A stretch of DNA of 58,334 nucleotides, taken from positions 1 through 58,334 of the forward strand of contig JAIPJT010000012.1 in assembly GCA_021733985.1 (NCBI GenBank), in the 5' to 3' direction. Numbering within the stretch: the first letter of the stretch is position 1; each line of letters begins with the position of its first letter. Origin of the DNA: Victivallales bacterium. Its GTDB lineage: Bacteria; Verrucomicrobiota; Lentisphaeria; Victivallales; GWF2-38-69. The position numbers and the translations under genes are program-made. The notes below the pieces were generated by a model, which was not told the DNA's origin, ran no database searches, and worked only from the letters and a program-made list of their open reading frames with translations. Of the stretch, positions 11,990 through 17,256 are shown piece by piece.

Positions 11990-13318
11990 ATGAAAAAATT
12001 ATTAAAGTCAATATTCAGCATCAAAACCAGTAACAGCAAACAACCCTCTCTAAAACCCAAACCCTTAACCGCAAAAAACCCGAAACACAGGAAAAAATTC
12101 ACAAAACTGGACTTATCAGATGATATTTTAAAAGCACTGGAAGAACTTGGTTACAGGGAAATGACTCCTATACAGGAGCAGACATACCCTATTATCAGTT
12201 CCGGAAAAGATTTATGCGGCCTGGCAGAGACCGGATCAGGAAAAACTGCGGCATGTATAATTCCTGTTGTCCCAAAGATAGATCAGAATCTAAACTCACT
12301 GCAGGCCCTGATAGTCGTCCCCACCAGGGAGCTGTGTCTCCAGTATGTTACGGAAATAATGAACATATCAAAAAATACCGGCATTAAACCTTTTGCCGTA
12401 TACGGAGGTGCTGACAAAGAAATACAAACTGCAAAAATTAGACATGAAGTTCATATTCTCGTTGCCACGCCGGGCCGCCTTATAGACCTTATATATGACG
12501 GTGTCATAAATATGTCGGATATAAAATGCCTAATTCTTGACGAAGCGGACGAACTTCTCAACGAAGGATTCCTTGAAGATATTGAGTTTCTGATGTCATG
12601 CATTATAAATAAACACCAGACTTTAATGTTTTCAGCAACAATGCCTGAAGATATAAAAAAACTGGCTGACAAATACATGAATAAGCCTGAATTCATATCT
12701 CTGATCAGCGATACACCCACACCCAAATCTATAGAGCACCGTTTTGTATACCTTTCAAATCACCGAAAACATTCCAAATTCGCAGAACTGTTAAAAAATG
12801 AAGATATTGAACAGGCAATAATATTCAGTAATTCCCGTCTTTATGTGGATAAGCTTTTCAGAAACCTTAAGGGTAAGCTTGAAAAGCTTGAATACATACA
12901 TGGGGGCTTAAACCAGGATTTAAGATCCAGTATTTTCTGGAAGTTTAAAAATAAAAAAATCAAATATCTGATTACTACGGATGTAACAGGCCGCGGAGTT
13001 GATTTCTCACATGTGACACATATTTTCAACTGGGACATGCCTAAAACCGCCGAACAGTATACACACAGAACAGGTAGGACGGGCCGAATGGGAAAAGATG
13101 GCAAAGCAATAACTTTTGTTACCCAGAAAGATATTTTTACACTGAAAAAGATATTAAGCATAAAGGATATTAAGCCTGTATGGCTCGGTCATAATCCCCT
13201 GTTGTCCAATGTAACTGACCGACAACAGAATATGAAGAATAAAAAGTATAAAAATTATAAAAACAGAAAGAATAAACAGCAATCCGGACAGAATAAGCAT
13301 AAACCGGCAGGTAAATGA
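11990..13318 (+). CDS. DEAD-box ATP-dependent RNA helicase
   Basis: Unwinds RNA duplexes, typically in ribosome assembly or RNA decay. Motifs in order: Q-motif region F..LDLSDDILKALEELGY, Walker A AETGSGKT (79-86), PTREL (111-115), TPGR (160-163), DEAD (184-187), SAT (215-217), and HRTGRTGR in the second RecA domain. The lysine-rich N-terminal 35 residues and C-terminal basic tail (KNKKYKNYKNRKNKQQ) would bind RNA non-specifically. At 442 residues it is a compact RhlE/CshA-like form. It overlaps the next gene by four bases (ATGA), indicating translational coupling with the radical-SAM/methyltransferase fusion. Confidence 0.95.
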   Translation: MKKLLKSIFSIKTSNSKQPSLKPKPLTAKNPKHRKKFTKLDLSDDILKALEELGYREMTPIQEQTYPIISSGKDLCGLAETGSGKTAACIIPVVPKIDQNLNSLQALIVVPTRELCLQYVTEIMNISKNTGIKPFAVYGGADKEIQTAKIRHEVHILVATPGRLIDLIYDGVINMSDIKCLILDEADELLNEGFLEDIEFLMSCIINKHQTLMFSATMPEDIKKLADKYMNKPEFISLISDTPTPKSIEHRFVYLSNHRKHSKFAELLKNEDIEQAIIFSNSRLYVDKLFRNLKGKLEKLEYIHGGLNQDLRSSIFWKFKNKKIKYLITTDVTGRGVDFSHVTHIFNWDMPKTAEQYTHRTGRTGRMGKDGKAITFVTQKDIFTLKKILSIKDIKPVWLGHNPLLSNVTDRQQNMKNKKYKNYKNRKNKQQSGQNKHKPAGK

Positions 13319-15222
13319 GTAAACCCCATATCCCTTATTACAGCTTTAAAGAATATCTACTGGATTATTACAATGCTTCTTTTTACAGAGTTCCTATTGA
13401 CCTGTCATTGTCATGTCCGCACAAAACAACAAAATCGGACGGTTGTATTTTCTGTGCAGAGGATGGTGCACGGGCAGTGCACCTCTCTAAACATTTAAAT
13501 CTCAGGCAGCAGGTTAAAGACGGGATAAATTATATTGAAAAAAGATACAGTGCAAAGGGCAATTACATTGCATATATCCAATCATATACCGGAACTAATT
13601 CGGATGTAGATACGTTAAGGAAACTTTACTATGAGGTCCTTAAACACGCTGATTTTAAAATATTAATTATATCTACAAGACCTGACTGTCTGCCGGAAGA
13701 TGTATTAGATCTTTTATCCGAGCTTAATAATATATATGAACTCTGGATAGAGCTTGGTGTCCAATCTGCAAATGATACGACGTTGCAGAAAATAAACAGA
13801 GGACACGACTTTAAAGCAGTTCGGGATTCCTCAATTAAACTTAATTCACGCGGCATTAAAACCGTTGCACATATTATACTTGGACTCCCGGATGAAACAT
13901 ATAAGAACTACCGCTGCACAGTACAGCAAATAAACGATCTGCCATTCTATGCCTATAAAATCCATAATCTGCTTATCCTGAAAAAATCACCCCTTGCCCG
14001 CTTATACAGCAAAGCAAATATATCGAAAAAGAACGGCGATATATTTATTCCTGAAATTGGAACGGTTAAACTGATGAATGAATTCGAATATGCCGGAATA
14101 ATTATAGATTTGATCAGAAGGATACCTGAAAATCGCCCCCTGCTCAGACTTACTGCCGACGCTGATGAAAAAAATATTATCGGCCCTAAATGGCAGCTGT
14201 CAAAGGGTCAGTTTATAGAACTTGTGAAAAATACTATGATTGATAACGGGTTCAGGCAGGGTGACCTGGTACGGAATATAGGTAAAGCCGGGGACTATGA
14301 TCAGAATAAAGAGAAAGAAAAAAGCTTAGGCCGGGACAATGATCGTGCCTGTTGTAAAATGGGAGAAACGGAAAACTGCATCAGTACCCCCCTCGCCTAT
14401 CTCAGGATAAAAACTGACGATGATTCCTACACTTTTTATAATCCAGTATACAAAGAAAATTATCACTCGCTTGCCGGAGCCGTCTCAGAAGCAGAATACA
14501 AGTTTATAATTCCGTCAAAATTAAAGGAAAGATTACTTCGGACAGATAAAGTTAAAGTTATGGATATAGGATTCGGGCTCGGTTACAATGCTTTATCAAC
14601 TCTGAAAACCTCCATCTCATACGGAACTAACCTTTCTATTACTTCATTTGAGTCTGACATTAATACTCTTAACATGGCGTTAAACCTTTATTCACTAAAT
14701 ACAATTGAACATATTATACTTTCAACTTTATCAGAAAAATATTTATGGGAAAACGGTAAAAATAAATTAAGACTGATTATAGGTGATGCCAGAGAAAAAA
14801 TTGCCGACTATCCAGAAAATGATTATGACATTATATTCCTGGATGCCTTTTCTCCCCGGAAAAATCCTGAACTCTGGACTTACGATTTTATAAGAATACT
14901 ATCCAGTAAAATAAAACAAAACGGCATTCTTGTAACTTATTCGTCCGCTTACCCCGTTAGAGGAGCAATGCTCAGATGCGGATTTTATGTTGGGACTACT
15001 AAACCTTTCGGCAGAAGAAAAGGCGGCACGACCGCCTCAAAACAAAAATCCAACATTGAATTTCAACTGCCGGTAAAAGAGTATAATATTATAAAAAAGT
15101 CTACAGCCGGGACACCGTTCAGAGACCCGGAATTAAAACTTCCCGGCAAAAAAATACTCTCCGATAGAGATAAACTTGTCAGAAAACTTCGCTTAAAAGG
15201 CATCCCGAAATGGTATAGATAG
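13315..15222 (+). CDS. Fusion of YtqA/YhcC-type radical SAM protein with MnmC2/MnmD-type tRNA methyltransferase
   Basis: The 635-residue protein has two domains. Residues 1-310 form a radical SAM domain of the TIGR01212 type: iron-sulfur cysteines C34, C44 and C47 in a CPHKTTKSDGCIFC pattern, then VAHIILGLPDETY. Residues about 355-600 match the MnmC2 (DUF752) methyltransferase: SAM-binding DIGFGLGYN (417-425), E446, D491, and the FLDAFSPRKNP signature (508-518). In Escherichia coli, MnmC2 is fused to an FAD oxidase and makes mnm5U at the tRNA wobble position; in Bacillus, the radical SAM protein YtqA acts earlier on the same route. This suggests a single-chain version, which is inference. A 45-residue charged linker separates the domains. 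Coupled by ATGA overlap to the helicase. Confidence 0.85.
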   Translation: MSKPHIPYYSFKEYLLDYYNASFYRVPIDLSLSCPHKTTKSDGCIFCAEDGARAVHLSKHLNLRQQVKDGINYIEKRYSAKGNYIAYIQSYTGTNSDVDTLRKLYYEVLKHADFKILIISTRPDCLPEDVLDLLSELNNIYELWIELGVQSANDTTLQKINRGHDFKAVRDSSIKLNSRGIKTVAHIILGLPDETYKNYRCTVQQINDLPFYAYKIHNLLILKKSPLARLYSKANISKKNGDIFIPEIGTVKLMNEFEYAGIIIDLIRRIPENRPLLRLTADADEKNIIGPKWQLSKGQFIELVKNTMIDNGFRQGDLVRNIGKAGDYDQNKEKEKSLGRDNDRACCKMGETENCISTPLAYLRIKTDDDSYTFYNPVYKENYHSLAGAVSEAEYKFIIPSKLKERLLRTDKVKVMDIGFGLGYNALSTLKTSISYGTNLSITSFESDINTLNMALNLYSLNTIEHIILSTLSEKYLWENGKNKLRLIIGDAREKIADYPENDYDIIFLDAFSPRKNPELWTYDFIRILSSKIKQNGILVTYSSAYPVRGAMLRCGFYVGTTKPFGRRKGGTTASKQKSNIEFQLPVKEYNIIKKSTAGTPFRDPELKLPGKKILSDRDKLVRKLRLKGIPKWYR

Positions 15223-15366: not shown

Positions 15367-17256
15367 TTATCTGTTTAAGCTGCCGGTTTCCATAAAAGTT
15401 TCATAATCTTCTACAGTCCCTTCGTCAAGACAGCATTCTATTATATCGCGCCCAGTTTTATCCAGATCAGGCTGTAAATATTTTTTTAATTCGTTATGGA
15501 AAAAGTCAGTTAGTTGTTTAGCCCCAATATCAAAGGTTTTCTTTCCTATTTCCGGCTGTGTGTCAACCTGAAGGAACCATCTGGGGATTATATGTCCTTC
15601 AATCCTCATGTTTTGCATTGAATATCCAAGTAGCGGACATCTTGAAGGTACGATCTGTTCTCTTTTGAATTTTGCATGCCCACGGCGCGCGAGGTAATCA
15701 CGTACAAGCCATTGCGGCATAAAACCTGTCTTCCATGCTCCTATATGCTGATTTGGTATTAATACATACAGAGTATGCGGAGTTTCAGTCAACTGTTTTA
15801 AAAGCAGGTTGGCCTGAGCAACTTTTTTACCGGGGGTAAAAGGCCAGTAACTGCCGACGCCCTCACTACTCATATTCCCATCATCTACAATGCTTGGATT
15901 TGCATACCCTCTTGGCGCGACGAGTCTCCAAAGCCATGCAAGAGAAGGCGGCAAAATATGCATCAGTCCAAGAATTCCATAGCTTGGACTATCTGAAGTA
16001 CACAAAGGAGTTCTTACTCCAAAAGAGCGGATATCAACCTGTACTTCTCCATCCACACAGTCCGGTACAATATGCCTTGGTATTACAACCCTTGGATTTG
16101 GACAGCGCTGGCCCGGTGCATCCTGTATGTGTTCCCATATCAATGCAGTCCCTCCGGTTACAGTGTCTATATTCAGAAACAGCTGAGATTCTTTGGGATG
16201 GATAGTCAGGTGCTCCAGGTCCGGATCGGTACCATATTCGGTAATGTGGTCTACTCGAACAAACCAGGCATCTTCAGCATCGACCAGTGTTAGTTTCCCG
16301 TTGTTTTTCTGGATTTTTGGATGGCATAAACCCATATCGTCACAGACAGGATTAAGATCGCATGTTCTCGGTATTTCCAAATGCCTTTTTTCGCCGGTAA
16401 CAGCATTTTGTCCAATCAGAAGCCTGCCGTCAAGCAGTCGGTGAGGCTGCTGCAGCATTTCGCTTTTTCCGCCTCCGCTTGCTCCTTCATGCATAAAAGT
16501 TACAGTGTTATCATATGGTGTTACTACCTGAACTGCAGAGCAGTGAGCCGTAACCCAGCCTTCCTGTTCTCCTAATTCAATAAGGGCTCCGTATACACCT
16601 TTCTTTGCACTCGGGCCAGGATAAAGATTATAAGAAAATATTTCATGTATTTCACCTCTGTCATGAACTACTGCCTGTTTGCCTTCAAAATGTGTATGTC
16701 TAAAGGGAGGAGCCACATAGATTATAGTTTTCGGATCAAAAGTTCTATCTATGCTTTTTATATCAATAATGCCCTGAAGCAGCCCCAGGCCGAAAGCAAA
16801 AAAACCGGCATTGGCGGGACAGATCGCCAATGCATCAACTCCAAGGCCGGGCTGCCCCATTTCAAAACAGAAAACTGCAAGTTCCTGTTTTTTTAGCCAG
16901 CTATAGGTTTCAGCCTTTAAATCCGAAAAATCGTATTTATATTTATCAATAAATCGTGGCTTGTCAGAAGGCTTGTTATCCGCAATAACCATGCATTCAG
17001 GATCTCTCCTGCGCATGTATGCTTCTCTATAATTTGCAACAACACCGTTCCTTACACGTGAGACATCCACTTCATCAACAATTCTCCCGCTTGGAAGCTT
17101 ATATGTAACTGTTGCAGTCTGTACGTATTTACTTACACATGCCAAATCTTCAAGTTCAGATATATTTGATGCTACTGACACCCTTGGCGCACTTCTCAAA
17201 ATATCTTCAAGCTCCTCTGTTAAATTTGCCAATTCTAAAAATTTCTCTATCTGCAT
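15367..17256 (-). CDS. DUF4914 family protein with PEPCK-like P-loop
   Basis: A 629-residue cytoplasmic protein that I recognise as DUF4914, whose core resembles PEP carboxykinase. The glycine-rich loop GASGGGKS (258-265) would bind nucleotide. Other conserved stretches are YMRRRDPECMVIADNKPSDKPRF (80-102), PPFRHTHFEGKQ (183-194) and YNLYPGPSAKKGVYG (209-223). Biochemical function is not established, so no symbol is given. It differs from classical GTP-PEPCK, which has a different kinase loop. The ATG follows GAGG in the leader. A structured RNA with a terminator lies 157 bases or more upstream, between this gene and the dehydrogenase gene, and may control it. Confidence 0.8.
   Translation of the reverse strand: MQIEKFLELANLTEELEDILRSAPRVSVASNISELEDLACVSKYVQTATVTYKLPSGRIVDEVDVSRVRNGVVANYREAYMRRRDPECMVIADNKPSDKPRFIDKYKYDFSDLKAETYSWLKKQELAVFCFEMGQPGLGVDALAICPANAGFFAFGLGLLQGIIDIKSIDRTFDPKTIIYVAPPFRHTHFEGKQAVVHDRGEIHEIFSYNLYPGPSAKKGVYGALIELGEQEGWVTAHCSAVQVVTPYDNTVTFMHEGASGGGKSEMLQQPHRLLDGRLLIGQNAVTGEKRHLEIPRTCDLNPVCDDMGLCHPKIQKNNGKLTLVDAEDAWFVRVDHITEYGTDPDLEHLTIHPKESQLFLNIDTVTGGTALIWEHIQDAPGQRCPNPRVVIPRHIVPDCVDGEVQVDIRSFGVRTPLCTSDSPSYGILGLMHILPPSLAWLWRLVAPRGYANPSIVDDGNMSSEGVGSYWPFTPGKKVAQANLLLKQLTETPHTLYVLIPNQHIGAWKTGFMPQWLVRDYLARRGHAKFKREQIVPSRCPLLGYSMQNMRIEGHIIPRWFLQVDTQPEIGKKTFDIGAKQLTDFFHNELKKYLQPDLDKTGRDIIECCLDEGTVEDYETFMETGSLNR

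Follow-up and report, generated by a model that had tools for sequence, protein, structure and literature searches.

A protein joining an MnmL-type radical SAM domain to an MnmC2-type methyltransferase in Victivallales, a candidate bifunctional enzyme of the tRNA wobble uridine

A single open reading frame of a Victivallales bacterium (assembly GCA_021733985.1) joins a radical SAM domain of the MnmL/YtqA family to an MnmC2-type methyltransferase. The product is probably a bifunctional wobble-uridine enzyme, in which the N-terminal half would convert cmnm5U34 to nm5U34 and the C-terminal half nm5U34 to mnm5U34; both reactions, the order of the steps and the substrate tRNAs are part of the proposal. 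The window analyzed here is a stretch of 58,334 nucleotides of contig JAIPJT010000012.1. The fusion gene, delimited by the open reading frame and domain scans, occupies positions 13315–15222 of the forward strand, opens with ATG, contains no internal stops and encodes 635 amino acids. The first-pass annotation had described one open frame with a TIGR01212-like radical SAM domain and a DUF752 methyltransferase, and this description was borne out by the profile searches.

The N-terminal half (residues 8–318; 13336–14268, forward strand) was recognized by domain scans, with an Elp3 fold indicated by Foldseek. It matched TIGR01212, for which the current NCBIfam name is ‘tRNA modification radical SAM protein MnmL/YtqA’, with 234.7 bits (E = 1.2e-69; the equivalog cut-off is 180), which places it inside the family, as the first-pass annotation had proposed. 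In Pfam the protein matched PF04055, PF16199 and PF05430, each above its gathering score, with the radical SAM C-terminal domain PF16199 located inside the N-terminal half (residues 214–308). Cysteines C34, C44 and C47, the predicted [4Fe-4S] ligands (C34-X9-C44-X2-C47; 13414–13455, forward strand), lie in the sequence CPHKTTKSDGCIFC, which conforms to the radical SAM CX9-11CX2C motif. An interdomain linker (residues 319–363; 14269–14403, forward strand), defined by alignment with relatives and by AlphaFold pLDDT, follows; its residues 323–361 are predicted to be disordered (pLDDT < 50), and it exceeds the linkers of the relatives in length. The C-terminal SAM-dependent methyltransferase domain (residues 364–635, with the PF05430 core at 478–577; 14404–15219, forward strand) was identified by domain scans and structure matches. 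It scored 106.9 bits with PF05430 (gathering score 22) and 122.9 bits with the MnmC2 model NF033855 (residues 375–576), slightly below the equivalog-domain cut-off of 136. The fusions of Victivallis and Desulfogranum gave 115.9 and 106.6 bits with the same model, so that all three scanned fusions fall under 136, and the C-terminal half is filed here as a PF05430 family member of MnmC2-like sequence. The domain scans found neither an FAD-dependent MnmC1 domain (TIGR03197) nor an MnmM domain (PF06962) in the fusion protein.

The predicted catalytic apparatus of both halves is complete. The three cysteines are invariant in 98 of 98 homologous radical SAM halves, E. coli YhcC among them, and so are Q89, R122, D124, E146, the GxPxE motif (190–194), K215 and H217. 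In the methyltransferase half, the SAM-site glycines G421 and G423 are present together with the D510/F512/W521 active-site motif, and D510, F512, W521, Y542 and G571 are invariant in 85 of 85 MnmC2 halves, which comprise the fused or separate domains of the clade. D510 and F512 belong to the FLDAFSPRKNP motif (residues 508–518; 14836–14868, forward strand), which, like the cysteines, lies exactly where the first-pass annotation had put it, and their counterparts in E. coli MnmC are D178 and F180, which we take to be active-site residues. The AlphaFold2 model of the protein has a pLDDT of 85.3 and a pTM of 0.79, with values below 50 just at residues 51–58, 237–239 and in the linker (323–361). 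In Foldseek searches the N-terminal half of the model matched the radical SAM domain of Elp3, and the C-terminal half matched Aquifex MnmC2 and E. coli MnmC. Aquifex aeolicus MnmC2 (DUF752; PDB 3vyw) was also the best PDB sequence match of the C-terminal half (E = 4.6e-39), which makes it the best match in both sequence and fold.

In the pathway that we propose, MnmE and MnmG would produce cmnm5(s2)U34, which the N-terminal radical SAM domain would convert to nm5(s2)U34 by taking off the carboxymethyl group, and the C-terminal MnmC2 domain, using a second SAM, would methylate the free aminomethyl group to give mnm5(s2)U34. The most likely chemistry of the middle step would be abstraction of a hydrogen from the glycine-derived CH2 by a 5'-deoxyadenosyl radical, followed by oxidation and hydrolysis. 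The fusion would thus take the role that MnmC has in E. coli, a radical SAM half that does not depend on oxygen substituting for the FAD oxidase half.

The gene content of the host agrees with this scheme. The host genome, a draft of 71 contigs that is 95.9% complete, encodes MnmG (750.9 bits) and MnmE (339.3 bits), and its single TIGR01212 protein above cut-off and its single PF05430 protein are both the fusion. No MnmC1 above cut-off was found in it; the best match was an FAD oxidoreductase with 57.6 bits versus the required 174.2. A hidden MnmC1 was rejected, as only FAD oxidoreductase matches far below the cut-off were present, and a hidden MnmM was likewise rejected, none having been found in the genome search. 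The presence of MnmE and MnmG and the absence of MnmC1 were among the checks that the first-pass annotation had named. Among 40 relatives of the host, there was also neither an MnmM (PF06962) nor an MnmC1 above cut-off.

The same pattern of replacement extends over the phylum, which was sampled with 388 genomes. MnmC1 scored above cut-off in five of them, all from one family of the window's class and each with a complete canonical MnmC, and these five contained neither the fusion nor MnmL at the threshold used. MnmM occurs in 61 genomes, none of which carries the fusion (hypergeometric P for zero overlap = 7e-7 over the 388 genomes, with relatedness ignored). Stand-alone MnmL accompanies stand-alone MnmC2 in six of seven genomes. 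In the 13 genomes with MnmL and without MnmC2, MnmM is present in five, and neither methyltransferase was detected in eight (G132, G229, G281, G316, G334, G074, G366 and G387; loci L188–L192, L220, L222 and L225). In these eight the pathway may end at nm5U, a different methyltransferase may take over, or the genomes may be incomplete. Three Bacilli have an MnmM gene (PF06962) immediately behind MnmL and overlapping it by 1–4 bases; the radical SAM protein comes first, as it does in the fusion. The radical SAM family and nm5U methyltransferases are therefore paired in three ways: fused, as separate genes in one genome, and in an operon. Since the family is coupled in these ways with two different nm5U methyltransferases, the pairing suggests that it acts at the nm5U-forming step.

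The fusion is widespread in Lentisphaeria and in a few other, mostly anaerobic lineages. Searches with a profile built from the two-domain proteins of 18 relatives gave matches in 96 of the 388 phylum genomes: 74 contain single-frame fusions, 2 contain copies cut by contig ends, 19 have stand-alone MnmL and 1 has stand-alone MnmC2 only. The recurrence of the domain pair across PVC genomes, which the first-pass annotation had suggested searching for, is thereby established. The two-domain protein is present through most of the order Victivallales, as the search of the 40 relatives showed, and 17 aligned relatives carry the two-domain frame at 42–51% identity to the window protein. Beyond Lentisphaeria, it was found in Kiritimatiellales, Pontiellaceae and Desulfobulbales (Desulfogranum mediterraneum DSM 13871, Desulforhopalus and Desulfobulbus), and in one metagenome-assembled genome labelled Gemmatimonadetes. 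Victivallis and the Desulfobulbales, whose physiology is known, live anaerobically, as would suit a radical SAM half that is sensitive to oxygen. Isolates or complete chromosomes with the fusion include Victivallis vadensis DSM 14823, Lentisphaerota strain zth2, Lentisphaerae WC36 and D. mediterraneum DSM 13871. The window genome is itself a 71-contig draft, and a join of two neighboring genes by sequencing error or misassembly was considered; it was rejected as extremely improbable, because the same single frame recurs in more than 70 genomes, isolates and complete chromosomes among them. Three fusion copies contain one in-frame stop each within the matched region (TAG in G217:C4:3465–5195, locus L136; TAA in G061:C29:20719–22467; TAG in G059:C3:118198–119934), which may represent sequencing error, a pseudogene or an alternative end.

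Membership in TIGR01212 does not by itself prove function, because E. coli K-12 encodes YhcC (L234:5122–6051), which scores 472.9 bits with TIGR01212, beside a complete MnmC (L235:1765–3771). The family must therefore have a further role as well or act redundantly, and the NCBI name MnmL/YtqA reaches wider than the proven function. YhcC shares the cysteine motif of the fusion but is a stand-alone protein, and to our knowledge its function is not established. In addition, MnmEG of E. coli can yield nm5U directly by the ammonium route, so the methyltransferase is not strictly dependent on a decarboxymethylating partner. Together these points give some weight to a reading in which the C-terminal half methylates nm5U made by MnmEG from ammonium, and the radical SAM half carries out a different reaction on U34 or elsewhere in the anticodon loop, as YhcC would unless it is redundant. 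The eight phylum genomes with MnmL and without MnmC2 or MnmM would suit it as well. We nevertheless regard it as unlikely: in the 388 genomes the fusion is never found together with MnmC1 or MnmM, the operon of Bacilli pairs MnmL with the nm5U methyltransferase MnmM, and a 2025 review (PMC12548931), citing genetics, places MnmL beside MnmC for nm5s2U. It is also rather improbable that, in place of cmnm5U cleavage, the radical SAM half modifies the wobble uridine by some other radical chemistry, either ahead of methylation or following it, in which case these anaerobes would contain an undescribed wobble nucleoside.

A further alternative is that the fusion serves only expression or tRNA binding, with one of the halves degenerate in the host. 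The long, disordered linker of the window protein and its divergence (about 50% identity to the nearest relatives) would be compatible with such a loss, but its catalytic motifs are all intact and are invariant in relatives, and the genome has no second copy of either domain, which leaves this explanation with very little probability. The case for the bifunctional wobble-uridine enzyme rests on partnership and mutual exclusion. The substitution of the FAD oxidase by a radical SAM domain, with both steps in one chain, as proposed in the first-pass annotation, thus passed the tests that could be computed, although TIGR01212 membership is weak evidence when taken alone.

E. coli MnmC is one of the known systems closest to the fusion. 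Like the fusion, it combines in one chain a decarboxymethylating domain and an MnmC2 methyltransferase for U34, and it needs MnmE/MnmG upstream. However, it has an FAD oxidase (MnmC1, TIGR03197) where the fusion has the radical SAM domain, and the domain order is reversed (MnmC2-MnmC1 in E. coli), so that the methyltransferase is C-terminal in the fusion. The operon of Bacillus MnmL (YtqA) and MnmM (YtqB) shares with the fusion a TIGR01212 protein followed by an nm5U methyltransferase in identical order, but it consists of separate genes, and its methyltransferase is MnmM (PF06962), whereas that of the fusion is MnmC2 (PF05430). Aquifex aeolicus MnmC2 stands alone, fused to neither an oxidase nor a radical SAM domain. 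Elp3, the nearest solved fold of the N-terminal half, is only ∼16% identical; it is the cm5U34 radical SAM enzyme and acts on C5 of U34, and its acetyltransferase domain is absent from the fusion.

Both enzyme types of the fusion have been linked to the mnm5U pathway before. The abstract of Jaroch et al. 2024 (J Bacteriol) reportedly refers to MnmL (YtqA) by name and speaks of ‘the occurrence of fusion proteins’, and the genetics in that work is said to tie MnmL to the mnm5U route. The fusion has therefore probably already been noted, at least in outline. In the papers that our literature search covered, we found no description of an MnmL-MnmC2 fusion, and we know of no reconstitution of the MnmL reaction so far. 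Cho et al. 2023 identified MnmM, which makes mnm5s2U from nm5s2U, and the authors considered it likely that, where MnmC2 is an orphan, the organism possesses an MnmC1-like enzyme yet to be identified, a question left open also for MnmM organisms (PMC9976899). As judged from the six of seven stand-alone-MnmC2 genomes of the phylum that carry it, MnmL is a candidate for the missing enzyme in some of these organisms. In the 2025 review (PMC12548931), nm5s2U is attributed to MnmL with reference to Jaroch et al. 2024. The first-pass annotation had expected direct support for the role of the radical SAM family; the pairing is indeed found, but the link is not new, given the NCBIfam name MnmL and this review. 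Since the substrate of the methyltransferase (nm5U) is known, the fusion connects the radical SAM family with the reaction immediately before methylation, and it provides one chain in which to test whether MnmL turns cmnm5U into nm5U.

Phylogenies of the two halves differ in what they imply for the origin of the fusion. In the radical SAM tree, the window half lies in a clade (100/100) that mixes fused proteins and separate MnmLs, and the sister of this fusion-containing clade (86/84) is an MnmL clade with five of its six members from MnmM-bearing genomes. In each of the half-trees the fusions fall into two groups, one from Lentisphaeria, which includes the window protein, and one from Kiritimatiellales/Desulfobulbales. 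Fused and separate proteins are intermingled in the radical SAM tree, where the starred branches force at least 3–4 changes, so fissions or repeated fusions must have happened. The methyltransferase tree is compatible with one fusion origin, and a single origin is, on the two trees, neither shown nor excluded. In the methyltransferase tree, the MnmC2 halves of the fusions lie a long way from canonical MnmC of the window's class, so the fusion did not arise in this lineage by the exchange of one half of MnmC. It combines an MnmL with an Aquifex-like MnmC2, the C-terminal half being nearer to Aquifex MnmC2 in the PDB sequence comparison.

In the window, the fusion is preceded by a DEAD-box RNA helicase gene (11990–13318, forward strand), the stop of which overlaps the start of the fusion by 4 bases (ATGA), so that translational coupling is possible. 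A conserved operon context was rejected: the helicase, the DcuC carrier, the MFS transporter, the DUF4914 protein and the alanine-dehydrogenase-like gene of the window do not adjoin the fusion at any of 86 other loci, and no mnm genes were recognized in the inspected clusters of frames flanking it. The DUF4914 protein, encoded downstream on the opposite strand (15367–17256; 978.9 bits), belongs to a conserved family without an assigned function.

A different combination was observed in phylum families f25 and f41, in which a complete queuine tRNA-ribosyltransferase carries a divergent MnmC2-like domain fused to its C-terminus (Tgt fusions; L226:416–2530, L227:328–2427, L228:316–2589 on the reverse strand and L229:1000–3198 on the forward strand). 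No paper on this fusion was found in the literature search. The two Tgt fusions that were scanned gave 442.5 and 422.6 bits for Tgt and 78.9 and 64.6 bits with the MnmC2 model, and a stand-alone relative of the MnmC2-like domain is present in L230. Since Tgt acts on the wobble G34 and preQ1 bears an aminomethyl group, these proteins may be N-methyltransferases of preQ1 or of the wobble base.
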